Positions 5,384-17,976 of a stretch of DNA of 20,831 bases are shown one piece after another (the stretch's first letter is position 1; each line of letters begins with the position of its first letter). The DNA is from a virus: positions 1-20,831 of IMG/VR virus record IMGVR_UViG_3300049732_000048; one strand, 5' to 3'. The position numbers were made by a program, and so were the translations under genes. The notes beneath the pieces are model-generated. The model was given only the letters and a program-made list of their open reading frames with translations, was not told the DNA's origin and did no database searches.

Positions 5384-6246
5384 CATCCCCTGTACCAGTC
5401 CCCGCGGTCCGGTGCCACGCGCTCGACGGCGCAAAGGCCGGCGCAAAGGCCGACGCGCCGCGCAACGCACGCCGCATCTGGCAGGAGATGAATGCCTTTG
5501 TCGAGGGGCATGCTCCGCGATGGACCGGACGCGCGGCGGCGATCCTGAACGGCGAGGGCAAGCGGGCGTCTGAGGCATACGAAAGCGGCGGGGAGAGCGC
5601 TGCGATCGCATCGGTCGATGATCAGGAGTGGCTGCGCTATCTGCGGTCGCTCTGGATCGCGACCGTTCCGGCGGCGGGTGGTATTGTCATTCCCTACCTG
5701 CCGCCGGTCAAGTCTCTCTCTCTGCGGACGAAGATCACGCCCGAGGAAGGGCTGATCGCCGCCGCGATGGAGTGGCTCCGGATGAACGGATTGCGCGGGG
5801 CAACGCAGATCGCCAATACGTCGAGGCGCGAGATCGCCGATCACATTGACGAAGGTGTCGCGAAGAACGAATCCTCGCACCAGATCGCGATGCGGATACT
5901 CACGTCGGTGCGATCGCGAAGACCCGCGCGGTCGGAGGTGATCGGGCATACCGAAGTCCACGCGGCGTCGAACTACGGCTCGCTATCCGCCGCGCAGCAG
6001 ACGCGGGCGCAGATGGCGAAGTTCTGGGTGCATATGGCGGACAACCGGGTGCGGGACTCGCACCGGGCCGCCGGCGGGCAGCGTCGGACGCTGGACGATG
6101 CGTTCCTGGTGAGCGGTGAGCGGCTGATGTTCCCCGGCGACGTGTCGATGGGCGCCTCCCCTGGCACGGTTGTGCGGTGCCGGTGCCATATCGCCTATGG
6201 CTCGGCTGAACGGATGGCGCCGCGGCGTCCGCGGCGCGTGGCGTGA
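5380..6246 (+). CDS. Head morphogenesis / minor capsid protein (Mu F-like)
   Basis: This 288-residue minor head protein associates with the portal during prohead assembly and is thought to be ejected or to aid DNA delivery in related phages. The C-terminal domain is the Mu gpF / SPP1 gp7 type: TEVHAASNYGS from residue 191, FWVHMADNRVRDSHRAA, a MFPGDVSMGA turn, and a final VRCRCHIAY at 265-273. The paired CRC and the preceding H and D residues are the usual conserved set. The N-terminal part has an Ala/Lys-rich stretch with a direct duplication (AKAGAKA). A separate helical region around 30-110 is less typical. It lies between portal and protease, as expected. The product ends in a basic RRPRRVA tail. 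Confidence 0.85.
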   Translation: MTSPVPVPAVRCHALDGAKAGAKADAPRNARRIWQEMNAFVEGHAPRWTGRAAAILNGEGKRASEAYESGGESAAIASVDDQEWLRYLRSLWIATVPAAGGIVIPYLPPVKSLSLRTKITPEEGLIAAAMEWLRMNGLRGATQIANTSRREIADHIDEGVAKNESSHQIAMRILTSVRSRRPARSEVIGHTEVHAASNYGSLSAAQQTRAQMAKFWVHMADNRVRDSHRAAGGQRRTLDDAFLVSGERLMFPGDVSMGASPGTVVRCRCHIAYGSAERMAPRRPRRVA

Positions 6247-6263: not shown

Positions 6264-6947
6264 ATGGAATACACAAAATACTTTGACTTCGCGTTGAAAG
6301 AGATAGCCGACGATGCGGCGGGCCAGTTCACTGGGTACTGTTCGACCTTTGGCAATACCGATCTTCAGGGCGACATCGTGATGCCGGGTGCGTTCGCTCA
6401 CACGCTGAAGTCATCGCGGGGTAAGGTGCCTATCCTCATGGGTCACCAGATGGCGCGTATCGTCGGGTTCGGCTTATCCGCCGAGGAGGACGAGAAGGGG
6501 CTGAAGGTGACCGGCCAGTTCACGCTCGACTCCGACGAGGGCCGCAATGCCCACGCGGTCGCGAAGCACGCATCGCAGGTCGGACACAAACTGGGGCTGT
6601 CGATCGGCTACGGCATTCGCAAGAACGGCTCGGAGTACGACGAAGCGACTCAGACGAGGAAGCTGAAGGATCTGGATCTCTGGGAGTACAGCATTGCCTG
6701 TGTTCCCGCGAATCCGAGAGCCAGAATCTCCGCCGTCAAGGCGAATGAATCATGGACCGAACGGGATTACGAGCAGTACCTGCGGGAAGCAGGGCTCTCA
6801 CGGGAAGCCGCGAAACGCTTTGTCTTGCGCGGCTTTGGTGCTCTCGATCAGCGGGATGCTGACGGCAGCGACAACGGCGCGGATGCGGCGGCGTTCAGCC
6901 GCGATCTGCGCGAACTGCGGGATTACATCACGCTGACAGGAGTATAG
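6264..6947 (+). CDS. Prohead maturation protease (HK97 family, U35/S78-like)
   Basis: This serine protease cleaves the N-terminal scaffold-like arm of the capsid protein inside the prohead, allowing expansion. The 227-residue product shows the family pattern: an N-terminal GYCSTFGNTDLQGDIV segment and PGAF, catalytic His61 in LMGHQM, a GLKVTGQF strand pair, Ser113 in KLGLSIGYG, and a closing LWEYSIACVPANPRA. The tail after residue 170 is charged and likely interacts with the capsid during assembly. The ATG at 6264 was chosen because of its strong ribosome binding site. It sits directly before the major capsid gene, which is the standard order. Confidence 0.93.
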   Translation: MEYTKYFDFALKEIADDAAGQFTGYCSTFGNTDLQGDIVMPGAFAHTLKSSRGKVPILMGHQMARIVGFGLSAEEDEKGLKVTGQFTLDSDEGRNAHAVAKHASQVGHKLGLSIGYGIRKNGSEYDEATQTRKLKDLDLWEYSIACVPANPRARISAVKANESWTERDYEQYLREAGLSREAAKRFVLRGFGALDQRDADGSDNGADAAAFSRDLRELRDYITLTGV

Positions 6948-6950
6948 GCA

Positions 6951-8177
6951 ATGGCTGAAGGATCGTTGATGAACAATGAAGATCGCGAGCAGGTAAAAGG
7001 TATCCTGCTCGAATTCAAGGATGCATACAAGAACGTTCGCGAGGAAGTCGCGAAGCTCGGCAAAGCCGACTCCGCGACGCTGGAGCGAATCGACAAACTC
7101 GATCTGGCGATGAAAGAGGTGCAGGAGCGGCACGAGGCCGCGTCCAGACGCGCCGACGCGCTCGAAGTCAAGCTGAACGAGAAACCGCGCGAGCGGGTGC
7201 CGAGCCAGTCGATCGGCGACATCGTGATCGCCGACGCCGGGTTGCAGGCGCACATCAAGAGCGGATCGCGCAACGGGTACACCGTATCGGTTCCGCGTGG
7301 TCTGTACGGCCAGAAAGACATCACCGGCGTTTCGCGGAGCGTCCCCGAATCGCTCCCCGGTATCGCGCCGGGGCCGCGTCTGGCGATCGGCGTCCGCTCG
7401 CTGGTTCCGCAGGGGACGACGACGGCGGGCGCGATCACATACGTGGTCGAGACGTCGTTCACCAACAACGCCAATGTGGTCGCGGAAGGCGCGGCGAAGC
7501 CGAAGAGCGACAAGGTGTTCACTCCGACGACGCAGCCGGTTGAGACGATCGCGCATTTTTTCAAGGTGTCCAGACAATCCTACGAGGACCTGCCGGGGCT
7601 CGCCGCGCAGATCGAATCGAACGGGATCTACGGCGTGCAACTGAAAGAGGACCAGCAATTGTTGAACGGTACAGGGACCGCTCCGCAGTTGAAGGGATTC
7701 ATGCCGGTGGCGGCGGCGGCGCCGGCGCCCGGCGGTACGGATGCAACTCTGGTCGATGCGGTGGGAGCGGCTATCTTTGACCTGGCATCGAAGGGTTACA
7801 TGGCGGACGGCTCGGTGATGAATCCGGCGGACTGGGGCGGCGTTGCGATGTTGAAGAACTCGCAGGGCAATTACCTGTTCGCGAATCCGATCGCGTATTC
7901 ATCGACGATGTCGCTCTGGGGGACGCGGCTGGTTCTGTCATCGCAGATGACCGCGGGCAACTTCCTGGTCGGCGCGTTCCGCGGCAACTCGCTCATCCTC
8001 GACCGCGAGGAAGTGAATGTGCGGGTGGCGGAACAGAACGTGGACGACTTTGAGAAGAACATGCTCACCATCCTCGTGGAAGAGCGGCTCACGTTGCTGA
8101 TCTTTACCGCGGCGGCGTTCGAGAAGGGCGTTACGCCGGTGGTCGTCGCGGCGGGCGGCGGCGCCGCTCGCCGGTAA
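6951..8177 (+). CDS. Major capsid protein (HK97 fold)
   Basis: This encodes the main shell subunit. The 408-residue product begins with a charged coiled-coil segment (about residues 8-80), the delta domain that acts as internal scaffold and is normally removed by the protease encoded just upstream. The HK97-fold part follows: an SIRS-like region replaced here by IGVRSLVPQGTTTAG, then YVVETSFTNNANVVAEGA, KPKSD, a long helix around SRQSYEDLPGLAAQIE, LLNGTG, MNPADWGG, and a final strand region near LTLLIFTAAAFEKG. An AGGAG lies close upstream of the ATG. The cleavage site is probably near residues 80-100 but cannot be fixed from sequence alone. It is followed by the structured gap at 8178-8371. 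Confidence 0.94.
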   Translation: MAEGSLMNNEDREQVKGILLEFKDAYKNVREEVAKLGKADSATLERIDKLDLAMKEVQERHEAASRRADALEVKLNEKPRERVPSQSIGDIVIADAGLQAHIKSGSRNGYTVSVPRGLYGQKDITGVSRSVPESLPGIAPGPRLAIGVRSLVPQGTTTAGAITYVVETSFTNNANVVAEGAAKPKSDKVFTPTTQPVETIAHFFKVSRQSYEDLPGLAAQIESNGIYGVQLKEDQQLLNGTGTAPQLKGFMPVAAAAPAPGGTDATLVDAVGAAIFDLASKGYMADGSVMNPADWGGVAMLKNSQGNYLFANPIAYSSTMSLWGTRLVLSSQMTAGNFLVGAFRGNSLILDREEVNVRVAEQNVDDFEKNMLTILVEERLTLLIFTAAAFEKGVTPVVVAAGGGAARR

Positions 8178-8371: not shown

Positions 8372-8503
8372 ATGACCGACGATCAACCGAAGCAGAAGCC
8401 AGAGCGGACGCCCGAGAACAAAGCACTCGGATACGAGAACAAAGCTGCGACGAAACGCAAACCGGCGAAGAAGGCGGCGAAACATGAGACTGCTCGCGAT
8501 TGA
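8372..8503 (+). CDS. Small Lys-rich protein, 43 aa
   Basis: A 43-codon ATG frame fills the space between the hairpin repeats and the connector gene, and overlaps the connector start by 20 bases. The product is very polar and basic (KRKPAKKAAKH) and contains a short internal duplication, ENKALGYENKAA. It has no hydrophobic core, so it is probably disordered and perhaps binds nucleic acid or the capsid. The base composition differs from the GC-rich gap before it. No ribosome binding site of note is visible. I do not recognise a family. Confidence 0.45.
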   Translation: MTDDQPKQKPERTPENKALGYENKAATKRKPAKKAAKHETARD

Positions 8504-9053
8504 GCGGATCACCGGGCCGACGGATCTCCCGGTGACGGTGGACGAGTTCATCGACCACGGGCGGCTCAACGGGCTCACCGTCGATCGGCAACCCGATCTG
8601 ATCCACCGCGAACTGGCCGCGGCGACGATGCGGGCCGAGCGGTATCTGCGGCGCTCGATCATGACGCAGACGCTCAAGGGGTACTGGGATCTCGACCACC
8701 GGGGATGCGATACGGCGATCGTGCTCCCGCGCGGGCGAGTGCAGAGTGTAACGACGGTGAGCGGGGCGTCGGGTGCGCCGGTGCTCGATCCGGCGGCGTA
8801 TCAGGTGATCGGTCCTGTGATCACGCTGCAATCCGCGGCGTATATGCGGATGGCCGTCGTCTGGGTGTCGGGCTACGGCGACGAGCCCGCCGATGTGCCG
8901 GATAGCGTCCGCGAGGGAATCCTCGAGTACGCGACGGTGCTCTACTGCGACCGGCTGGGCGGGCGCGAGTCGCGGTATGCGAACGCCGCGGCGAAGCTGC
9001 CGCGCGGGATCGAGGATCTCTGGCGCGGCGAGCAGATCGAGATCGGGGGATAG
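8484..9053 (+). CDS. Head-tail connector protein (phiE125 gp8 / gp6-like)
   Basis: The 189-residue product matches the connector proteins that bind under the portal and begin the neck. It has an N-terminal VTVDEFIDHGRL helix start, a helical ELAAATMRAERYLRRSI segment, a beta section with IVLPRGRVQSVTTVS, a DPAAYQVIGPVITLQS stretch, WVSGYG, and a final helix pair beginning VPDSVREGILEYATVLY. The order of R-x-[IL]-x-LP..[KR]V.SV and the SGYGD-P turn before the last helices is the usual signature. Its position after the capsid gene agrees. Confidence 0.85.
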   Translation: MRLLAIERITGPTDLPVTVDEFIDHGRLNGLTVDRQPDLIHRELAAATMRAERYLRRSIMTQTLKGYWDLDHRGCDTAIVLPRGRVQSVTTVSGASGAPVLDPAAYQVIGPVITLQSAAYMRMAVVWVSGYGDEPADVPDSVREGILEYATVLYCDRLGGRESRYANAAAKLPRGIEDLWRGEQIEIGG

Positions 9054-9063
9054 GTGGTGACGG

Positions 9064-10368
9064 GTGAGTAAATACACTGGCAGGGGCGCGAAGTTTTCAG
9101 TCGAGGGAACCGAGGTCGCGCAGGTCCAGTCGATCGGATCGATCGACATAACCGCGGATGAGACGGAAGTGACCACGTTGGACAATGCGAGCGGTTTCAG
9201 GGAGTTCCTGCAAACCTTCAAGGATGCCGGCGAGATGCCGCTGACGCTGGTCTGGGACCCGGCGCTGCCGTCGCACGGGCCGGAAGCGGGCGGGCTCTGG
9301 GAGTTGTTCATCAGCGGCGCAACCAAAAGCATGAAGATCGAATGGGCGACGGTTCCACCCTACACGGCGACGTTTCAGGGCGTTGTCAAGTCGTACCCAA
9401 CTCCGCAGGCGACGCCCGACGACGCGCTCATGGCCGAGGTGTCGATCCGCGTTGCCGGAACGGTGACGCTGGCGCCGTCCGTCCTCCCGCCCGCCTATAC
9501 GCGCACCGGCGCAACCGGGGACCGGCGGTCCATGATCACGGTCACCAGTGACTATTCGCACGGCAGCAGGATGGATGCTCTTGTCAACGGCACACAGACG
9601 AACGAGTTCTTCTTCGGGACTGATCCCGTCGCGGGGAAGCAGATCCTGTTCGCTTTCGACTACCAATACGCGATCGATGAGGCGCGGTGGTATCAGTCGG
9701 GCGCGGACGCTCACGGCACATGGCGATGGCAGGGGAGCAACGATCTGAGCGCGTGGGCAAACATCGGCTCGCCGTTCGTTCTCGGCGGCGCCGCCATGCA
9801 GACGCAGACCGCGCTGAACGGCAACACGGCGGCGTATCAGTACTACCGGCTGCTCGGCGTGAGCGGCAACGCGAGCAACAGCGGGTACGTGCGGGAGGTG
9901 GAGTTCCGCATATCGCCGCCGCACAACCGGACGGCTGAAACCGCCTGGCTGACCGGCGATCGCCGCGCGTCGATCACGATGACGAGAAACGGCGTCGGGT
10001 CGGCGGATAACGCACTGTTCGACGGATCGTACAGCAACACGTTTTTCGCCGGTGGATCTGTCGCGGGCTGGTGGCTGAGATTCGATTTCGGCTCGCCGAA
10101 GCGGATCGACGGTGCGCGGTGGATCGCGAGCGGCGAGTGGACTCTCGGCGAGTGGAAATGGCAGTACAGCGATGACGGCGCGGCGTTCACCGATGCCGGG
10201 CCGGCGTTTTTGCTTGCGCCGGCGAACGGTCCGGTGAACGGGCCGACCTGCAACATGTACTCGATGTCCGCGCATTCATCGCCGCATCGCTACTGGCGGA
10301 TGCTCGGCGTGACCGGCAACTGGGACGCGAGTTCCTATGCCCGCGAAATCGAGTTCCGTCAGGCGTGA
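9064..10368 (+). CDS. Tail tube paralogue fused to two discoidin-like domains
   Basis: Residues 1-137 are a tail tube protein nearly identical to the product of 12655-13104: seven substitutions and a six-residue deletion near residue 14. Two similar C-terminal domains follow, about residues 140-285 and 287-434. Each has the plan D-R-R-[SA]-x-I-T, then FFxG or FFAGG, LxFxF(D), ARW[YI], G-x-W-[RK]-W-Q, YWRMLGV or YRLLGV, and REVEF or REIEF. That order is typical of discoidin (F5/8 type C-like) beta-sandwich domains, which often bind sugars or surfaces. The GTG start has AGGTGG six bases upstream. The gene lies between connector and head closure, not next to the chaperones where a tube gene belongs. 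It may form decorated rings in the tube or neck, or the tube part may serve as an anchor; this is inference. Confidence 0.85.
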   Translation: MSKYTGRGAKFSVEGTEVAQVQSIGSIDITADETEVTTLDNASGFREFLQTFKDAGEMPLTLVWDPALPSHGPEAGGLWELFISGATKSMKIEWATVPPYTATFQGVVKSYPTPQATPDDALMAEVSIRVAGTVTLAPSVLPPAYTRTGATGDRRSMITVTSDYSHGSRMDALVNGTQTNEFFFGTDPVAGKQILFAFDYQYAIDEARWYQSGADAHGTWRWQGSNDLSAWANIGSPFVLGGAAMQTQTALNGNTAAYQYYRLLGVSGNASNSGYVREVEFRISPPHNRTAETAWLTGDRRASITMTRNGVGSADNALFDGSYSNTFFAGGSVAGWWLRFDFGSPKRIDGARWIASGEWTLGEWKWQYSDDGAAFTDAGPAFLLAPANGPVNGPTCNMYSMSAHSSPHRYWRMLGVTGNWDASSYAREIEFRQA

Positions 10369-10380
10369 GGGGTGAAACCA

Positions 10381-10566
10381 ATGAGCGGATGGCATGACTC
10401 CACGATGAAGGCGGCGGAAGAGATCGCCGCGGCGCTCGCGACGGCGGGCGACGGGGCATTGTCGCATCTGAAAGCGGTGCAGCAACACATCGACAACGCG
10501 ATCGAGGCGCTGGAGAGCAGTCTGGCCGGGGATGACGACGAGGGCGAGGACGATCCCGACGAATGA
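10381..10566 (+). CDS. Small acidic helical protein, 61 aa
   Basis: The ATG at 10381 has a GAGGGGTGA just upstream and is preferred to the GTG nine bases earlier. The product is one long amphipathic Ala-rich helix (about residues 8-48) ending in a very acidic tail (GDDDEGEDDPDE). There are no Cys residues or membrane segments. It is placed directly after the fused tube gene and before the head closure gene. A 57-bp gap follows it with no clear signal. The function is unknown. Confidence 0.6.
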   Translation: MSGWHDSTMKAAEEIAAALATAGDGALSHLKAVQQHIDNAIEALESSLAGDDDEGEDDPDE

Positions 10567-10623: not shown

Positions 10624-10959
10624 ATGACCGCATCCGATCTCAGCGAATGGATCGCCGTATTCCAGATGGAACTGATCCCCGACGGGCAGGGCGGATTCAC
10701 CGAACAGGTGCCGATGGGTCTGGTCCCCGACCGGCCGGCGCACGTCGCGCGGCTCTCCGGCCAGGAACTCGCCGCCGCCGATCAGGTCGCGGGCCGGGTG
10801 CGGTATCACATCACGATCCGGTACGAGCCCGCCATCACAATCGCGTGGCGCGTGCTCTGGCGCGACCAGCTGCTAGACGTGATCGATGTGGCGAACGTCG
10901 ATAACGCCGATGCGTGGCTGACGATGAGATGCGAGCGGAAAGAGGCGGGGGCGCAGTGA
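10624..10959 (+). CDS. Head closure / head-tail joining protein (SPP1 gp16-like)
   Basis: The 111-residue product has the head-tail adaptor pattern: an N-terminal IAVFQMELIPDGQGGFTEQ hairpin, an AHVARLSGQELAAADQ segment, then VRYHITIRYEPAIT, a WRVLWRDQLLDVIDV strand pair and a terminal WLTMRCE strand. The GQE, IRYxPxI and [RQ]xLxVIxV landmarks are those of the small beta-barrel proteins that plug the connector once DNA is packaged. Its position between connector and gp10-like genes fits, apart from the inserted fused tube gene. The following gene's GTG overlaps its stop. Confidence 0.78.
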   Translation: MTASDLSEWIAVFQMELIPDGQGGFTEQVPMGLVPDRPAHVARLSGQELAAADQVAGRVRYHITIRYEPAITIAWRVLWRDQLLDVIDVANVDNADAWLTMRCERKEAGAQ

Positions 10960-11171
10960 CGGCCAGCTTCCTCGATCACACGCTGATGGACGCCCGCTCG
11001 ATCGCCGGGAGAGAGACGCCCGACGACGGTCTGGGACTGACCCTGCGTCTGTCGTGCGGTCACCGGATCTGGTTCGCGTCCGAGCCGCGGGGAGCCGTCT
11101 ATTGCGGGGTATGCCTCGATCATCTGGTGCAGCAGATCCGCGAGATACAGGCCGGGCAGGCGCCGCTGTGA
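10956..11171 (+). CDS. Small zinc-knuckle-like protein, 71 aa
   Basis: The GTG at 10956 overlaps the preceding stop (GTGA). The product has a CGH motif (Cys34, His36) and a CGVC motif (Cys50, Cys53) on either side of a short beta segment, which would suit one zinc ion in a ribbon-like fold. A helix follows (DHLVQQIREIQ). It is the second Cys-rich mini-protein in the window. Its neighbours are neck genes, but I do not recognise a neck role. The next GTG overlaps its own stop. Confidence 0.5.
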   Translation: MTASFLDHTLMDARSIAGRETPDDGLGLTLRLSCGHRIWFASEPRGAVYCGVCLDHLVQQIREIQAGQAPL

Positions 11172-11317
11172 AGTGGGTGGCGGTCTGGTATACGGTCATT
11201 GCGTTCGGTGCCGCGGTGCTGTTCCTGCGGCGCGGCGAGACGTGGATTCTGATTGTCGCCGTGATCGCGGCGTTCCTCGCGATGTGCTGCCGGATGCTCT
11301 GGTGGGAAGAGGAATAA
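11168..11317 (+). CDS. Small two-pass membrane protein, 49 aa
   Basis: The GTG start overlaps the previous stop. The product has two hydrophobic helices (about residues 3-19 and 26-44) separated by a short basic RRGET loop, and ends with acidic WWEEE. The basic loop would be expected on the cytoplasmic side, with both termini outside, although the acidic end makes this uncertain. No signal cleavage site is seen. The function is unknown; it could act on the host membrane during infection, but nothing in the sequence shows this. Confidence 0.5.
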   Translation: MKWVAVWYTVIAFGAAVLFLRRGETWILIVAVIAAFLAMCCRMLWWEEE

Positions 11318-11323
11318 ACCGCG

Positions 11324-11821
11324 ATGCCGCGCGGCATGTTCACCATCGACATCAGGGGGCTGGAGATACTCCGCAGGAACGTGGAGATGCTCAAACGCGA
11401 GTTCCCGGTCTGGCTGTTTCGCGCGAACGAGGAAACGGCGGTTGAGATCTTCGGCGCCGCCCGGGCGAATATCGTCGCGAACGATTCTTACGCATCCGGC
11501 GAACTCTACGAATCGATGTTGATCGAAGTGAAGGACCAGGGCCTGCGGATCTTCGTCGGATCCACGTCGCACTATGCGCCGTATGTCGAGTACGGGACCA
11601 GACCGCACTTCCCGCCGGTGTCCGCGATCCGCGAGTGGTGCCGATTGAAGGGGATTCCGGAAGCGGCGGCGTATCCGATCGCAAAGAAGATCGCCGAGCG
11701 CGGGACGCCGGAACAGCCGTTCTTTGCGCCCGCGGTTCAGGTGGCGCGGGGACGGCACATCAAGCGGCTGCGGGATCTGGTGACGGCGGCGATCAACGGG
11801 CGGCTGAAAAAGGCGGGCTGA
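11324..11821 (+). CDS. HK97 gp10-like neck / tail completion protein
   Basis: The 165-residue product belongs to the HK97 gp10 family of tail-side neck proteins. It has an N-terminal helix region (LEILRRNVEMLKREF), ASGELYESM (the S-G-x-L-x-x-S landmark), a VGSTSHYAPYVEYGTRPH segment in which APYVEYGT-x-PH is the strongest family signature, then AIREWCRLKGI and a closing EQPFFAPAV. In known phages the protein lies between head closure and terminator genes, as it does here. The stop and the next ATG share a base (TGATG). The start at 11324 follows a purine-rich stretch with a long spacer; an alternative ATG lies four codons later. Confidence 0.88.
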   Translation: MPRGMFTIDIRGLEILRRNVEMLKREFPVWLFRANEETAVEIFGAARANIVANDSYASGELYESMLIEVKDQGLRIFVGSTSHYAPYVEYGTRPHFPPVSAIREWCRLKGIPEAAAYPIAKKIAERGTPEQPFFAPAVQVARGRHIKRLRDLVTAAINGRLKKAG

Positions 11822-12033: not shown

Positions 12034-12236
12034 AGCGCCGGGGATCGGGCGATCTGCGGGACCAGTTCCGGACGCTGGACGATCCGATGCCGGATGTGAC
12101 GCTGCCCGCCGGGCCGTATCCGTCGTTTGAGCGCGATCGTGAGCCCGTCGGGTGCTGGCGGGCCGATCCCGCGAAGCCGGGGCTCTGGCGCCGGTTCTGG
12201 GCGTGGGCTTTGCTCGGGTATCGCTGGCGCGACTGA
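12030..12236 (+). CDS. Hypothetical protein with aromatic C-terminus, 68 aa
   Basis: The ATG at 12030 overlaps the stop of the previous gene. The product is polar and apparently disordered over most of its length and closes with a Trp-rich amphipathic segment (LWRRFWAWALLGYRWRD). That end could lie along a membrane or pack into a protein partner. Similar W-rich endings are, from memory, found in small phage proteins, without known function. There is no cysteine cluster or catalytic motif. Confidence 0.5.
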   Translation: MKRRGSGDLRDQFRTLDDPMPDVTLPAGPYPSFERDREPVGCWRADPAKPGLWRRFWAWALLGYRWRD

Positions 12237-12241
12237 TTCCA

Positions 12242-12625
12242 ATGCTTCCGCTATCCGCCGTACAGAAGGCGATCTACGAGGCGCTGACGCCCGCGCTCGC
12301 GCCGGTCCCGGTGCTCGACCTCGCCGGTCCCGACCAGTTGTATCCCTACGTCACGATCGGCGAGTTCACCGGCGAGCAGAACGATCCTCTGATCGAGCAC
12401 GGGACAAACCTCGAGGTCAACGTGCACACCTGGTCGCGGTATCCCGGCATGGCCGAGACGCAGCGGCTGATGGAGACGGCGCAGTCGGCGCTCGACCGGC
12501 AGCGGTTCGCGATCGAGGGCGCTCAGTGGGTCGATACGATCTGGATCTTCGCGCAGACGCTGCGCGATCCCGACGGCGTGACGCGGCACGGCGTGCTGCG
12601 CTTTCGCGTAGTTCTGTTCAGTTAA
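12242..12625 (+). CDS. Tail terminator / tail completion protein (gp17-like, DUF3168 type)
   Basis: The 127-residue product shows the order of the DUF3168 family: VQKAIYEAL at the start, VPVLDLAG, YPYVTIGE, an EVNVHTWSR strand, an AETQRLMETAQSAL helix, and a final VTRHGVLRFRVVL strand. This family caps the tail tube once it has reached full length and joins it to the neck. The location directly before a tail tube gene is standard. I chose the ATG at 12242, since the longer upstream frame lies inside the previous gene. Confidence 0.85.
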   Translation: MLPLSAVQKAIYEALTPALAPVPVLDLAGPDQLYPYVTIGEFTGEQNDPLIEHGTNLEVNVHTWSRYPGMAETQRLMETAQSALDRQRFAIEGAQWVDTIWIFAQTLRDPDGVTRHGVLRFRVVLFS

Positions 12626-12654: not shown

Positions 12655-13104
12655 TTGGCGAAATACACGGGTAGAGGAGCGACCTTCTCGGTCGAAAGCG
12701 GAACACCGGGAACGTATGCGGAGGTAGCACAGGTGCAGTCGATCGGATCGATCGATATAACGGCGGATGAAACGGAAGTGACCACGCTCGACAACGCGAG
12801 CGGCTTCCGCGAGTTCCTGCAAACCTTCAAGGACGCGGGAGAGATGCCGTTGACCTTGGTATGGGATCCGGCGCTCCCGTCGCACGGGCCGGAAGCGGGC
12901 GGGCTCTGGGAGTTGTTCATCTCGGGCGCAACCAAAAGCATGAAGATCACCTGGGCGACGGTTCCGCCCTACTCGGCGACCTTCGACGGGTTCGTCAAGT
13001 CGTTTCCGACGCCTCAGGCAACGCCCGACGACGCATTGATGGCCGAGGTGTCGATCCGCGTTGCGGGGACGGTCACACTGGAGGAAGCCGGGGCGGTGGC
13101 GTAA
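12655..13104 (+). CDS. Major tail tube protein
   Basis: This 149-residue protein forms the stacked hexamer rings of the tail lumen. It is the plain version of the tube domain that also heads the gene at 9064. Common parts include YTGRGA, QSIGSIDITADETEV, TLDNASGFREFLQTF, DAGEMPLTLVWDP, ELFISGATKSMKI and EVSIRVAGTVTL. It has a six-residue insertion (around SGTPGTY) near residue 16 relative to the fused copy, in what should be a loop. The TTG start is supported by the GGAGGG upstream. Its place between terminator and chaperone genes is the standard one, so this is the likely main tube subunit. Confidence 0.88.
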   Translation: MAKYTGRGATFSVESGTPGTYAEVAQVQSIGSIDITADETEVTTLDNASGFREFLQTFKDAGEMPLTLVWDPALPSHGPEAGGLWELFISGATKSMKITWATVPPYSATFDGFVKSFPTPQATPDDALMAEVSIRVAGTVTLEEAGAVA

Positions 13105-13107
13105 GGT

Positions 13108-13545
13108 ATGCAAAAGATCGTAAACGGAACCGCCGCATCTCCGCGGCGGTTGTCGAAGCCGGTCACGGTCATGCTCGATCGCGAGCGGGAACTCGTCTAC
13201 GACCTGAACGCGATCTGCTCGTTTGAGGAAGCGACGGGGCTCTCGGTTGTCGATGCTCTTCGCAGTCTCACCATGACCAACATACGCGCCCTGATCTGGG
13301 CGGGTCTGCTGGTGGACGATCCGGCGCTCACGCTCAACCAGGCGGGGGCGCTGATCCGGTTCACCGATATCGCCGCCGTCACGCAGTCATTGCGCGATGC
13401 ACTGCGGTCGGATCTGGCGCAGGCGGATGACGCCGAGCGCCCTACGAACGAGACGGCGGTGGTCAACGGCGCATCGACTGGGGCCGTCTCTGGTCTGTCG
13501 GCAGATACAACCTCCGACTCTCCAATAGCGATTTCTGGCGTCTGA
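13108..13545 (+). CDS. Tail assembly chaperone, upstream frame (gpG-like)
   Basis: The 145-residue product starts three bases after the tube gene. Its core has VTVMLDRERELVYDLN, AICSFEEATGLSVVDAL, an NIRALIWAGLL helix and LTLNQAGALI, which match the short tail chaperones that bind the tape measure before tube assembly. The last 30 residues or so are low-complexity (Ala, Ser, Thr, Gly) and look like a non-structured end. A second frame, -1 to this one, overlaps its end from 13431 and reads on to 13796. This is the G/GT arrangement known from lambda, where a small fraction of ribosomes shift frame to make a longer form. Confidence 0.8.
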   Translation: MQKIVNGTAASPRRLSKPVTVMLDRERELVYDLNAICSFEEATGLSVVDALRSLTMTNIRALIWAGLLVDDPALTLNQAGALIRFTDIAAVTQSLRDALRSDLAQADDAERPTNETAVVNGASTGAVSGLSADTTSDSPIAISGV

Positions 13546-13796
13546 CGCCGCGGGAGTTCTCGCTGCTGTGCGAAGCTCACCGCGAGCAGGAACGCGCCGC
13601 CGACTACCGCGCCGGGGTGGTGGCATCGCTCGTCTCCGCGTGGGTCCGCAAGAAGCCGTTGCAACCTGCTGACCTGTTCGTATCGCTCCGGACCGGGGCC
13701 GCGGCATCGGGCGTCAACGGACGCGGCCAGACGCCGGAACAGCAACTCGCCATCTTCAAAAGCATTTTCTCTGACCGGCTTGTGATCAGGAACTAG
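13431..13796 (+). CDS. Tail assembly chaperone, -1 frame extension (gpT-like)
   Basis: The frame opens after a TGA at 13428-13430 and lacks a good ATG or GTG near its beginning. It reads IDWGRLWSVGRYNLRL, then SDFWRLTPREFSLLCEAHRE, and ends FKSIFSDRLVIRN. The FW-x-LTPREF motif is a landmark of second tail chaperone frames. The motif begins at 13533, before the stop of the first frame at 13543-13545. Its reading frame is -1 relative to the first, so it is most simply made as a frameshift fusion. I found no canonical X-XXY-YYZ heptamer in phase between 13431 and 13545. The limits given are those of the open frame, not of a known protein. The tape measure gene starts eight bases later. Confidence 0.72.
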   Translation, partial: RRAPYERDGGGQRRIDWGRLWSVGRYNLRLSNSDFWRLTPREFSLLCEAHREQERAADYRAGVVASLVSAWVRKKPLQPADLFVSLRTGAAASGVNGRGQTPEQQLAIFKSIFSDRLVIRN

Positions 13797-13803
13797 ACTT
13801 CCT

Positions 13804-16800
13804 ATGGGTGGATTCTCCAACGTACTCGGATCGTTGTCTGTCGTCATCGGCGCCGAGATCGATGATTACCTCAACGATCTCGCGCGGGTGTCGAAGGAAG
13901 CCGGGACTGCCGTCGGCGAGGTCGAGAAGAAGTTCGAGGGGCTCCAGACGGTAGGAACACAGATCGCCGGTCTGGGTGCGGGGCTCACCGCCGGGATAAC
14001 ACTGCCGCTCGCGGGATTGTCGGCGCTCGCTATCAGCGCGGCGGCGGATATGGACTCCCTGATGCGGGGGCTGACCGCTGTTGCGGGATCGTCTGAGGAA
14101 GCGGGCAGGCAGATGGCGCGGCTGAAAGAGGTCGCGAAACTGCCGGGGCTTGCGCTCGAGGAAGCAGTACAGGGATCGATCCGGCTGCAATCCGTCGGCG
14201 TGTCGGCAGAGCAGGCCGAACGCACGATGAAGGCATTCGGCAATGCACTGGCGACGGTCGGCAAGGGAGCGCCCGACCTCGAGGCGGTCATCTCGCAGCT
14301 TGTGCAGATGTCGAGCAAGACAAACGTCGTCGCCGAGGATCTGAAGCCGATCATGGAGCGCGTGCCACAGGTGGCCGCGATCATGAAGCAGGAGTTCGGG
14401 ACGATCAATACGGAGGTGCTGCAAAAGCTCGGAGTCTCAACGAAGGAATTTACCGACAAGGTTATAGCGGGACTGGAGAGGCTCCCGGCTGTATCCGGCG
14501 GGGTGAAGAACGCGATGGAGAATCTCAGGGATTCTTCAAGGGCGGCGTTAACCTCGATCGGGCAATCGCTGATCCCGGTACTCGAGAAACTGACTCCGGT
14601 CATCGAGGGTCTGCTCGGCCAGGTGGTGAAACTGGCCGAATGGTTCCGAAATCTCCCGGCGCCCGTACAGGCAGCGGTGGGCGCGGTGGTAGCGTTCGCC
14701 GCCGCGCTCGGGCCGGTGCTGGTCGCGATCGGCGGACTCACCGCGGCGGTTGGCGCTGCGATGCCCGCGTTGACCGGGCTTGCCGTATTCTTTGGCACGT
14801 CGGTCGGCGCACTCGGCACATGGACGGCGACAATCGGTCTGGCGGTCGCCGCTCTGGCAATTCTCACTTCACAGGCGAGCGACACCGGCAATGCGGCGCG
14901 GGAACTGCACGATGCGCTCAACATGACATCAGAGGCCGGTGGCACATCGAAGGGCATCATTGATCAGGTCACCGAATCGCTGCGCGGCATGTTTGGCCTT
15001 TCGGATCAGGCGAGCGGATCGCTGAAGACGGTCAACGAGACGGTGAAGGAAAGCTCCGACCTTGCTAAGTTCTTCTCCGAGAAACTGGAGGAACTGAGGA
15101 TTAAGTGGGAACAGTTCCGGTGGACTGACTACATCAGCCCGCTCGGCGTGTTCAACAAACTGCTGCGCGATACAGCCGAGGTTGTTTCCACGATTCGCGG
15201 CGTGTTCCCCGATATGGAGAAGGCGGGGACCAAGGCGCTCGAATCGCTGCAAAAGTCTAATCAGAAGTCCGCGTCTGACGCTGCGGCGAACGCGATGGCA
15301 ATCGATGCAGTTGCGAAGAAACAGCGCGAGGCAGCGGAGGCCGCAGCAAAAACGGATGCAGCACTAAAGAAGAAAGCGGCTGCGGAGAACGCGGCTGCGA
15401 AAACGGCGGCGGATCACGCCAGAGCGGTCGCGGATGCATGGGACTCGGCGCACAAGCGATACGACCTCGCCGCGAAGGACGCCGAAAAGAACCGCAAGTG
15501 GTTCGAGGACGCCTACAAAAAGATCGAGCAACTCGACCGGGATCTCGAGCGAAGCGCGGCGCAGTTAGCGACCAACTTCGCCAAAGCCCATCTCGAGATG
15601 CAGAAGGCGGCGACGGAGACGGTCAACGTCATCGTGCCGCTGACGCAGCGCATACCGCCGGAAGTACAAGCCGTCATCAAAGCGAATCAGGATCTCGAAA
15701 AGGCGTACAAAACGCTCGGCATGACGAGCGCCGAGGAACTGGCGAAACAGTGGAAGGCGACCGCCGAAGCATACGATCTGATCGTCGCTAAATCAGGCGA
15801 GGCGTCGGATGAAGCGGGCCGCGCGTGGATCGCGATGGAGGAAGCGCGGGTCAAAGCGACCGTCGCGGCGGGCGGCATCATCACCGAAGAGCAGAAAAAA
15901 ACGCTCAAGGAGATGAAGGAGCTCTATCCTCCGATCGAGGATGCGACGAGGGAGCATCAGGAAAAAACCCGCTCGCTCTGGCAGGACTGGGCAGATGACA
16001 TCTCGGGGATTCTCGGCGGGTTCGCCCAGGCGGTGTTCGACCGGCTGATGCACGGCTCGCAGGAGAACGAACGGCTGGATGAGGAAACCGCGAAGCTTCA
16101 GCAATCCCTCGCCGATCGTGCCGTCGAATACGAAGACTATGTGGCGGAGGTGAACGGCGAACTCGATCAGTTGCACGCCGACTACGTCGCCGATATCGAC
16201 GCCGAGACGGAAGCGCTGGCCGCGCAGCTTGCCGACGCTGCGGGGGAATGGGACGAGTACGTACAGGACGTGGCGGACAATATCGCCGCCATCCATGAAA
16301 AGCACCAGTCCGCGATCGAGGGCGAGCGCGAGAGGACGGTCGAGGCGATAGCGGACAAGACCGAGGCGTATGAAAAATACGCGGAGGATGTAGCCGAGCG
16401 GATCGGCGAAATCCAGGAGAAGTGGGACGAACAGCTTGCGGATGAAACCGAATCGCTGCGGGCGGCACTGGCCGAACGTCAGGAAGACTATGACGACTTC
16501 GTAGAGGACGCCAACACCAAACTCTCGCGGCTCGGCGGCAAGTACAGCGAGAACATCGAGGACGAGACGCAGGACACCGAGCGGAGCATCCGTGACCGCG
16601 AGAAGGACTACGCACGGTACGCGGAGGATGTAGCCGAAAAGATCAAAAAGCTCCGCCTGAAAAACAAGGGGCAGTACAGCGACGAGGAAGGCGACCTGGA
16701 GCGTTCGCTGAAGCGCAAGAAGGAAGACCTCGATCAGTACGTCGCCGATCAGCGGGCTGATCTCGAAGAATACAGGCGTGAGCAGCAGGAGCGTCAGTCG

Positions 16801-17976
16801 CAGGAAGAAGCGGACCTGAAAACCTCGATGGATCGCAAGACGCGCGACCACGAGCAGTATCTGGCAGAAAACAAAGCAAAGCAGGACGGCGCCTACGCGA
16901 AATATCAGGAGGGGCTGACGAAGGAGGTCGGCGCGCAGCAGAAATCGCTGGCTGAACGCCAGACCGATCTGGCCACATTCGTGACCGAGAAGACGGCGGC
17001 GCTCGACCGTTCCGTCGCCAGTCACCAGGCGGCGGAAGAGAAAGAGATCGAGCAGCAGCGCACCGCGATGGCGACGAAAAAGACGGAGTACGACACTCAC
17101 GTCAACGAACTGATCGCCGCATCGGAGCGCCGGAAGGGCGAGATCGCGAAGCATTACGAGGACGAGACGGCGAACCTCACGACCGAACTCGGCAAGCAGA
17201 CGACCGAATACAACAAATGGGTCACCGGCATCACCGGACCCGGCGGCGAACTGGAGAAGCTGAAGGAAGCGCACCGCACGGTCTGGGACGACATCAAGGG
17301 ATTCGGTATGAATGCGATCAGCGATATCGGGGCATCGCTTATGGACCTGATCAGCGATCGCATACTCGGCAAGGTCACCAAGGCTCTGGGCGAAACCGGT
17401 CTGGGCGGGATACTCGACACGCTCGGCGAGAAGATCGCCGGACTGATCGGCAGTTCCGGTGATGTCGTCGCGGGTGTCGCAGGAAGCGCCGGCGGCACGG
17501 CGGCGAAAGTGGGCAGCGGTCTGATGGGGACGATCGGCGCGATCGGCGGCGTCGTCAGTGCCATATCCGGCGTCATCGGAAACTTCCAGATGGCGGGGAT
17601 GAATAAGACGCTTGACCTGATCGAGAAGGAAACCCGCGAATCGAAAATCCACTTACAGCACATTCTGGAAGACGGCGTGAACAAGTATCTCCCGAAGTTG
17701 CCAGAGATCGCGGGTTACCTGTGGAACACATTCACGCCCGCGTTCGCTTCGCTGATGACGACTGCCGAAACCATGAACGATCGCCTGTTTGCCATCAGCA
17801 CCAACACCTACGGCGGGACCGGAACCGCTCTGAACAATCAGTTATTGGTGCTCATGGAGATCCGCGATTCGCTTGTCGCGAGGCCGCCCGCGGTCACTAT
17901 CGTCGTTAACGGTGCGGCTGGTCCTCAGGCAACCGCCGACGCGGTGGCGCTCAAACTCCAGGGAGTCATGCTTTGA
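13804..17976 (+). CDS. Tail tape measure protein, 1390 aa
   Basis: The tape measure is packed in the tube lumen and fixes tail length. An AGGAAC lies upstream of the ATG. Domains in order: an N-terminal helical domain (about residues 70-250) of the kind seen in many tape measures (MDSLMRGLTAVAGSSEEAG, VVAEDLKPIMERVPQV); a hydrophobic Gly/Ala-rich stretch at about 290-355 that may insert in the host membrane; an Ala/Lys helical segment around 490-620; then 9.5 repeats of 40 residues (758-1137) forming a continuous charged coiled coil; and a second Gly-rich hydrophobic segment at about 1200-1262. No lysozyme or peptidase motif was noted. At about 0.15 nm per helical residue the protein could span up to roughly 200 nm. 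It follows the chaperone pair, as expected. Confidence 0.95.
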   Translation: MGGFSNVLGSLSVVIGAEIDDYLNDLARVSKEAGTAVGEVEKKFEGLQTVGTQIAGLGAGLTAGITLPLAGLSALAISAAADMDSLMRGLTAVAGSSEEAGRQMARLKEVAKLPGLALEEAVQGSIRLQSVGVSAEQAERTMKAFGNALATVGKGAPDLEAVISQLVQMSSKTNVVAEDLKPIMERVPQVAAIMKQEFGTINTEVLQKLGVSTKEFTDKVIAGLERLPAVSGGVKNAMENLRDSSRAALTSIGQSLIPVLEKLTPVIEGLLGQVVKLAEWFRNLPAPVQAAVGAVVAFAAALGPVLVAIGGLTAAVGAAMPALTGLAVFFGTSVGALGTWTATIGLAVAALAILTSQASDTGNAARELHDALNMTSEAGGTSKGIIDQVTESLRGMFGLSDQASGSLKTVNETVKESSDLAKFFSEKLEELRIKWEQFRWTDYISPLGVFNKLLRDTAEVVSTIRGVFPDMEKAGTKALESLQKSNQKSASDAAANAMAIDAVAKKQREAAEAAAKTDAALKKKAAAENAAAKTAADHARAVADAWDSAHKRYDLAAKDAEKNRKWFEDAYKKIEQLDRDLERSAAQLATNFAKAHLEMQKAATETVNVIVPLTQRIPPEVQAVIKANQDLEKAYKTLGMTSAEELAKQWKATAEAYDLIVAKSGEASDEAGRAWIAMEEARVKATVAAGGIITEEQKKTLKEMKELYPPIEDATREHQEKTRSLWQDWADDISGILGGFAQAVFDRLMHGSQENERLDEETAKLQQSLADRAVEYEDYVAEVNGELDQLHADYVADIDAETEALAAQLADAAGEWDEYVQDVADNIAAIHEKHQSAIEGERERTVEAIADKTEAYEKYAEDVAERIGEIQEKWDEQLADETESLRAALAERQEDYDDFVEDANTKLSRLGGKYSENIEDETQDTERSIRDREKDYARYAEDVAEKIKKLRLKNKGQYSDEEGDLERSLKRKKEDLDQYVADQRADLEEYRREQQERQSQEEADLKTSMDRKTRDHEQYLAENKAKQDGAYAKYQEGLTKEVGAQQKSLAERQTDLATFVTEKTAALDRSVASHQAAEEKEIEQQRTAMATKKTEYDTHVNELIAASERRKGEIAKHYEDETANLTTELGKQTTEYNKWVTGITGPGGELEKLKEAHRTVWDDIKGFGMNAISDIGASLMDLISDRILGKVTKALGETGLGGILDTLGEKIAGLIGSSGDVVAGVAGSAGGTAAKVGSGLMGTIGAIGGVVSAISGVIGNFQMAGMNKTLDLIEKETRESKIHLQHILEDGVNKYLPKLPEIAGYLWNTFTPAFASLMTTAETMNDRLFAISTNTYGGTGTALNNQLLVLMEIRDSLVARPPAVTIVVNGAAGPQATADAVALKLQGVML
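16135..17214 (+). repeat. Nine in-register 120-bp (40-residue) repeats in the tape measure
   Basis: Each unit starts with an aromatic-V/A pattern such as DYVAEV, EYVQDV, KYAEDV, DFVEDA, RYAEDV, QYVADQ, QYLAEN, TFVTEK and THVNEL. Each ends near a xxRxxxY/D/E motif. Every unit is exactly 40 residues by my count, with no insertions or deletions, and half a unit precedes the first (16075-16134). The units have diverged, but a 20-bp identical stretch (TACGCGGAGGATGTAGCCGA) recurs exactly 240 bp apart, at 16378 and 16618. Confidence 0.85.

Follow-up and report, generated by a model that had tools for sequence, protein, structure and literature searches.

Introduction

Siphophages with partly decorated tails are known. 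As described, such tails arise through ribosomal frameshifting, and what is added to the tube proteins is either Ig-like or a BppA-type module. In phage SPP1, a ribosomal frameshift on a single gene yields both the tube protein gp17.1 and an extended form, gp17.1*, that carries one FN3 domain. The two forms are present in the tail at a ratio of 3:1 (one subunit in four is extended), and the added FN3 domain is dispensable (PMC8718954). In lactococcal 936 phages, a fraction of the tube subunits (MTP-TpeX) carries a large carbohydrate-binding module of the BppA type, preceded by an intervening Ig-like adhesin domain. This form is also of frameshift origin, with no separate tube gene, and purified TpeX bound host strains but not the non-hosts tested (PMC6669499). 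In lambda gpV, T5 pb6 and YSD1, the outward C-terminal domain is Ig-like and lies inside the main tube gene; a single C-terminal Ig-like domain is likewise what a review describes for tube proteins (PMC9022992). The function of the outer tube domain has been stated as open (PMC8718954, PMC9022992).

The window analysed here (the whole 20,831-base stretch of viral DNA) holds a plain tail-tube gene, TTP, and a decorated one, DTTP. The pair resembles the SPP1 isoforms in that one of two encoded tube forms has extra C-terminal sequence. It differs in that DTTP is a separate paralogous gene with two discoidin domains. As with MTP-TpeX, a fraction of the tube subunits would bear a large module, here predicted to bind carbohydrate. 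In fold, the tube part of DTTP matches gpV (26% identity over 106 residues, Z about 8.7), and its C-terminal domains would likewise point outward. The added domains are of the CBM32 or F5/8 type C kind by profile and fold matches, and their tandem arrangement is that of neuropilin b1b2 and factor VIII C1C2, but in DTTP these modules are mounted on a phage tube protein.

Two tail tube genes in one late gene cluster

The late genes run in the order terL end, portal, head region, capsid, adaptor, Hc1, neck, terminator, tube, chaperone, tape measure and tail proteins, with DTTP inserted among the connector and neck genes (Table 1). The tape measure protein, at 1390 aa, suggests a long siphophage tail, and no tail-sheath gene was seen among the window's genes. 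Plain tube orthologues are present in three relatives (G001, G002 and G006). The portal is about 24-31% and the capsid 37-38% identical to those of varied phages. No close relative that would point to a host was found in the genome collection, where the best tube match was 38%, in Caloramator.

The start codons of the two tube genes were corrected from an earlier reading to GTG at 9064 and TTG at 12655. Their ribosome-binding sites are predicted to be close in strength, with anti-Shine-Dalgarno duplexes of -8.6 kcal/mol for DTTP and -9.8 kcal/mol for TTP.

Table 1. Tail, neck and connector features of the window, by position.
Feature	Position	Strand	Product	Basis
Head-tail adaptor, upstream neighbour of DTTP	8484..9053	+		PHROG 442, E 2e-15
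DTTP ribosome-binding region, AGGTGG	9042..9063	+		Sequence comparison
DTTP (decorated tail-tube gene)	9064..10368	+	434 aa, GTG start	Single ORF; tube and two discoidin domains
DTTP tube domain, lambda gpV type	9064..9471	+	Residues 1-136	Pfam/PHROG, AF2 model, alignment
D1, discoidin/CBM32-type domain	9493..9921	+		Profile against PDB CBM32; AF2 pLDDT; fold matches
D2, discoidin/CBM32-type domain	9940..10368	+		Weak Pfam F5_F8_type_C match (311-378); fold match
Small ORF between DTTP and Hc1	10372..10566	+	64 aa	Directly 3' of adaptor in G002; empty-site marker
Head closure Hc1	10624..10959	+		Pfam Phage_HCP 8e-14, PHROG 25
Neck/tail completion protein (HK97 gp10-like)	11324..11821	+		Pfam PF04883, PHROG 5
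Tail terminator	12152..12625	+		Pfam PF11367, PHROG 176
TTP (plain tail-tube gene)	12655..13104	+	149 aa, TTG start, GGAGGG Shine-Dalgarno	Pfam/PHROG
Tail assembly chaperone	13108..13545	+		PHROG 2115 and position after tube gene
Tape measure protein	13804..17976	+	1390 aa	Position and coiled-coil sequence

DTTP contains a complete tube domain

Residues 16-136 of DTTP match Pfam Phage_TTP_12 (E 3e-8), and residues 16-145 match PHROG 158, the major tail protein (E 3e-12). TTP matches the same two families at 2e-9 and 2e-14. Both proteins score above the curated Phage_TTP_12 cut-off of 26.1 (34.1 bits for DTTP, 37.8 for TTP). Over their 136 common codons, the tube parts have 92.6% protein identity and 83.8% DNA identity. 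Residues 16-92 of DTTP, which cover the N-terminal strands, the long stacking loop and the helix, are identical in protein to TTP. The differences sit at the N-terminus, around residues 93-111, and in a 6-residue loop, a segment that the plain tubes of the clade have and DTTP lacks.

The modelled tube part (residues 5-141 of the second AF2 model) has lambda gpV among its top fold matches (Foldseek E about 1e-4; VIA Z 8.3-8.9). Hcp and other tube proteins score like gpV against this model, so the fold match indicates the superfamily, and the assignment to the lambda type comes from sequence. By Pfam, PHROG and fold, then, the original prediction of a second whole tube gene holds.

The C-terminal part is a pair of discoidin domains

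Residues from about 144 to 286 and from 293 to 434 are two copies of one domain, with 39% mutual identity. A profile built from nine such domain sequences matched solved CBM32 modules (7blg at 1.9e-5, 4a42 at 6e-4 and the AlyQ CBM32 at 7e-4), which was the outcome of the profile search of this region that the original prediction had proposed. Pfam F5_F8_type_C was found in five of the nine members, at best 1.1e-6; DTTP itself reached 20 bits, under the gathering cut-off of 28.2. In fold, D2 (residues 300-434) matched the F5/8C domain of chitobiase, 2kd7 (VIA Z 11.0, 2.9 A, 111 residues). The C-terminal part as a whole gave a tandem match to neuropilin b1b2 (Foldseek E 3e-7) and also to factor VIII, and it resembles single CBM32 and chitobiase F5/8C domains. 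These profile and fold matches establish that the discoidin call is correct and that the folds are in tandem, as originally predicted. By sequence, CBM32-like is the most precise label. In other phages, relatives of the domain occur in fibre-like and esterase-bearing virion proteins or in small proteins.

Structure prediction of the full protein, also proposed earlier, recovered both the tube and the tandem discoidin folds, but the overall models are weak, with a mean pLDDT of 66 for the first and 57 for the second. The first was built from a mixed alignment in which discoidin-only rows spread over the tube; D1 was still confident, with pLDDT above 90 for most of residues 190-270. The second used tube rows only, and gave a good tube and weak discoidins. 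Each model is good in one part only, so there is no single confident full-length model.

DTTP is an old, maintained gene

The 136 common codons of DTTP and TTP contain 42 synonymous and 8 replacement differences. By the NG86 method, dN is 0.069 and dS 0.71, giving a dN/dS of about 0.10 (bootstrap 0.05-0.17) for the tube part. For the discoidin part, the comparison of the window with G001 gives 0.115. Because synonymous sites are well diverged and dN/dS is low, DTTP is an old, maintained paralogue under strong constraint in both of its parts. A recent duplication is rejected on the same counts.

Two further explanations of the second gene were considered and rejected. An assembly artefact or a chance reading frame is not tenable, as a second IMG/VR record, 3300049733_000031, carries DTTP at the same position with 100% identity and an intact frame. 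That record matches the window over 15.1 kb at 99.8%, with one mismatch and one 30-base gap. Nor is DTTP a frameshift extension of the plain tube: it is one continuous ORF 3.6 kb upstream of TTP, and the chaperone frame directly follows TTP.

The gene moves among relatives

In G001 (3300045978_000309), DTTP is placed between the terL and portal genes. Its discoidin half is undamaged and 86% identical in protein to that of the window. The tube part carries a 109-nt frameshifting deletion and is only 74% like the resident G001 TTP. When records were searched for the junction left by this deletion, only the G001 contig itself was found, and the deletion could be an assembly error. G002 (3300045885_000279) has only the plain tube; there, the homologue of ORF 10372 comes immediately after the adaptor. 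Since not every relative has the gene, DTTP is dispensable within the group. The region just upstream of the start is common to the window and G001 copies of DTTP (AGGTGGTGAC), unlike the upstream region of the plain tube (GGAGGGTAAA). For this reason, DTTP appears to be an accessory cassette that carried its translation start along when it moved. The original prediction had called the gene misplaced. This describes its position in the neck cluster of the window, but there is no conserved neck position in the group.

The region between terL and portal has other additions. In the G001 locus (L004), a 28-nt direct repeat is present three times (5527-5554, 6775-6802 and 8104-8131, at 100, 86 and 68%) and bounds the decorated tube and collagen-repeat genes. 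Its 16-nt core has four matches in the locus at up to three mismatches, against 0.06 expected, and was not found in the window. These repeats are possibly the trace of a cassette insertion. The collagen-like (Gly-X-Y) gene, at 7123-8103 of L004, lies beside the relocated DTTP and follows a 116-aa ORF with no Pfam match; the stretch from 6780 to 8103 is an accessory island of adhesin type in the packaging region of G001. In the window, the corresponding site between terL and portal holds an ORF at 1119-2297 that resembles a DNA methyltransferase, named by inspection of its sequence. The site thus appears to be a hot spot for accessory genes. A stretch of about 142 bp (2291-2431), after the methyltransferase-like gene, recurs elsewhere in the relatives: it is 82% identical to G001 locus positions 11063-11203, which match a stretch upstream of the G002 portal at 81%. 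It looks like a small mobile or shared intergenic element.

Signs of exchange in the tube part

A tube-domain tree does not place the two DTTP copies together: that of the window pairs with the window TTP, and that of G001 with the TTP of G002 (supports 79 and 78). The AU test rejects a forced grouping of the two DTTP tubes (p 0.013), and the SH test is borderline (p 0.0545). The window DTTP and TTP also have in common 11 successive codons that are variable among relatives (permutation p 0.019), a run that includes amino acids peculiar to the window phage. Because the DTTP tubes do not group though the discoidin parts are orthologous, these comparisons indicate an exchange of tube sequence, which in the window phage went towards the resident tube. 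Such an exchange would fit gene conversion between DTTP and the resident tube gene, or selection for a match between the two, and recombination between phages may be an alternative source. Such tracking of the resident tube is seen in the window phage, within a comparison of very few phages and sequences; the G001 DTTP does not match its resident tube and is broken.

A second tube copy is rare

The 118 tube-domain loci compared come from viral contigs and bacterial genomes; among them, only the window phage, 3300049733_000031, G001 and the short contigs L067 and L107 have a second tube copy. The scans were seeded by conserved peptide words and can overlook more distant cases, and where a short contig shows one copy, the second may lie beyond its end. 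L067 and L107 are unrelated short viral contigs that, like the window, pair a plain tube gene with a second one. In L067 (38-1089), the second tube carries an Ig-like domain of about 90 aa, and in L107 (1747-2508), the tandem tube genes are cut by the contig end. These pairs differ from DTTP and TTP in that the two genes are adjacent and diverged, and the addition is of Ig type. No fusion of a tube to a discoidin domain was found outside the small clade, either in 30 viral discoidin loci or in the approximately 118 tube loci.

In the literature searched, which had incomplete coverage and in which candidates were judged by title or abstract, no description of a tandem discoidin on a tube protein was found, nor, for the phrases tried, any of an extra or duplicated tube gene. 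The earlier suggestion of novelty for tandem discoidins on a separate tube paralogue therefore survives both the literature and the locus searches. That novelty is limited by the existence of a separate-gene decorated tube in L067 and of lectin-type tube extensions in lactococcal 936 phages (PMC6669499). The decorated tube is already known, and the form with two genes and a double discoidin appears to be undescribed.

Possible roles of DTTP

We think it probable that DTTP is a minor, decorated tube subunit that co-assembles with TTP and displays lectin-type domains for a grip on host glycans. The protein, made from its own gene, would co-polymerise with TTP into common hexameric rings, with its C-terminus outward as in lambda, T5 and SPP1. 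The two CBM32-like discoidins on the tail surface would provide a multivalent, weak grip on host-surface glycans and so help reversible adsorption. Ring assembly, minor stoichiometry and glycan binding are all inferred; the minor share is argued by analogy, because the predicted ribosome-binding strengths differ little. Tape measure proteins scale at the usual 1.5 A per residue. With a ring rise of 38-43 A (PMC9022992), a tape measure of 1390 residues would correspond to a tail of about 50 rings and 300 tube subunits, in which DTTP at a low fraction would already supply tens of lectin pairs. In favour of this reading are the complete and constrained tube domain, the tracking of the resident tube in the window phage, the broken tube part in G001 where the match to the resident TTP is poor, the fold matches, the occurrence of related domains in fibre-like and esterase-bearing proteins, and the SPP1 and 936 precedents. 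The loop that DTTP lacks, the absence of the gene from G002 and the weak full-length models weigh against it. Of the roles first envisaged, decorated rings with a surface-adhesion function are retained as likely.

An alternative is that DTTP forms a single or a few special rings at the head-tail joint or the tail end, as an adhesion device like a collar or whiskers. The window gene does sit among connector and neck genes, and 936 phages have collar and neck-passage structures with carbohydrate-binding modules (PMC6669499). However, the G001 copy is between terL and portal, and the site in G002 is empty, so the neck location proposed earlier as a clue loses its force: a neck-specific ring is poorly supported because DTTP is an accessory cassette with a non-conserved location. 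The inter-ring and helix regions are also as in an ordinary tube and show no features adapted to the terminator or the adaptor; given the identity of residues 16-92 to the plain tube, nothing marks a special ring. We regard this alternative as unlikely. The same mobility could suggest that DTTP is an accessory gene spread by horizontal transfer, in decay or of passing use only, and without a part in the virion here, as the gene occupies different sites in different phages, is absent from G002, and has a frameshifting deletion in the G001 tube part. Against this, dN/dS is low in both parts, the frames are intact in the window and in 3300049733_000031, and the deletion is in a single contig whose discoidin half is undamaged. 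Decay is improbable on these grounds.

It is also conceivable, at similarly low probability, that DTTP decorates the tube but that its discoidins stabilise or stiffen the tail and are not lectins. Discoidin folds bind many things besides sugars. In lambda, the outer Ig domain makes additional contacts within the ring, and activity falls when this domain is lost (PMC8718954). Yet in the profile search, the nearest domains of solved structure are carbohydrate-binding CBM32 modules, and domain relatives in other phages are in fibre-like and esterase-bearing proteins.

Returning to DTTP as a decorated subunit with glycan-binding domains, we advance more tentatively the idea of heteropolymer rings built from two tube paralogues encoded by separate genes, in which a movable double-discoidin copy is kept ring-compatible by gene conversion or by selection against the resident tube. 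If true, phages would have a genetic route to partly decorated tails as an alternative to frameshifting. With a separate, movable gene for the decorated tube, a phage could gain or lose lectins on the tail surface and leave the essential tube gene untouched. The arrangement offers a clean test of the role of tail decoration, since deletion of one gene suffices to remove the decorated form.

Tape measure and chaperone regions

The tape measure protein varies in length among these phages. That of 3300049733_000031 has 1400 aa, the genes differing by 30 nt within a stretch rich in Ala and Gly, and those of G001 and G002 have about 995 aa; the extra length in the window is a charged coiled-coil region. 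Judged from these lengths, tail length varies within a close phage group. In addition, a stop-free frame on the + strand (13410-13797) overlaps the end of the chaperone gene and reaches almost to the tape measure gene, as for a G/GT extension by programmed frameshift.
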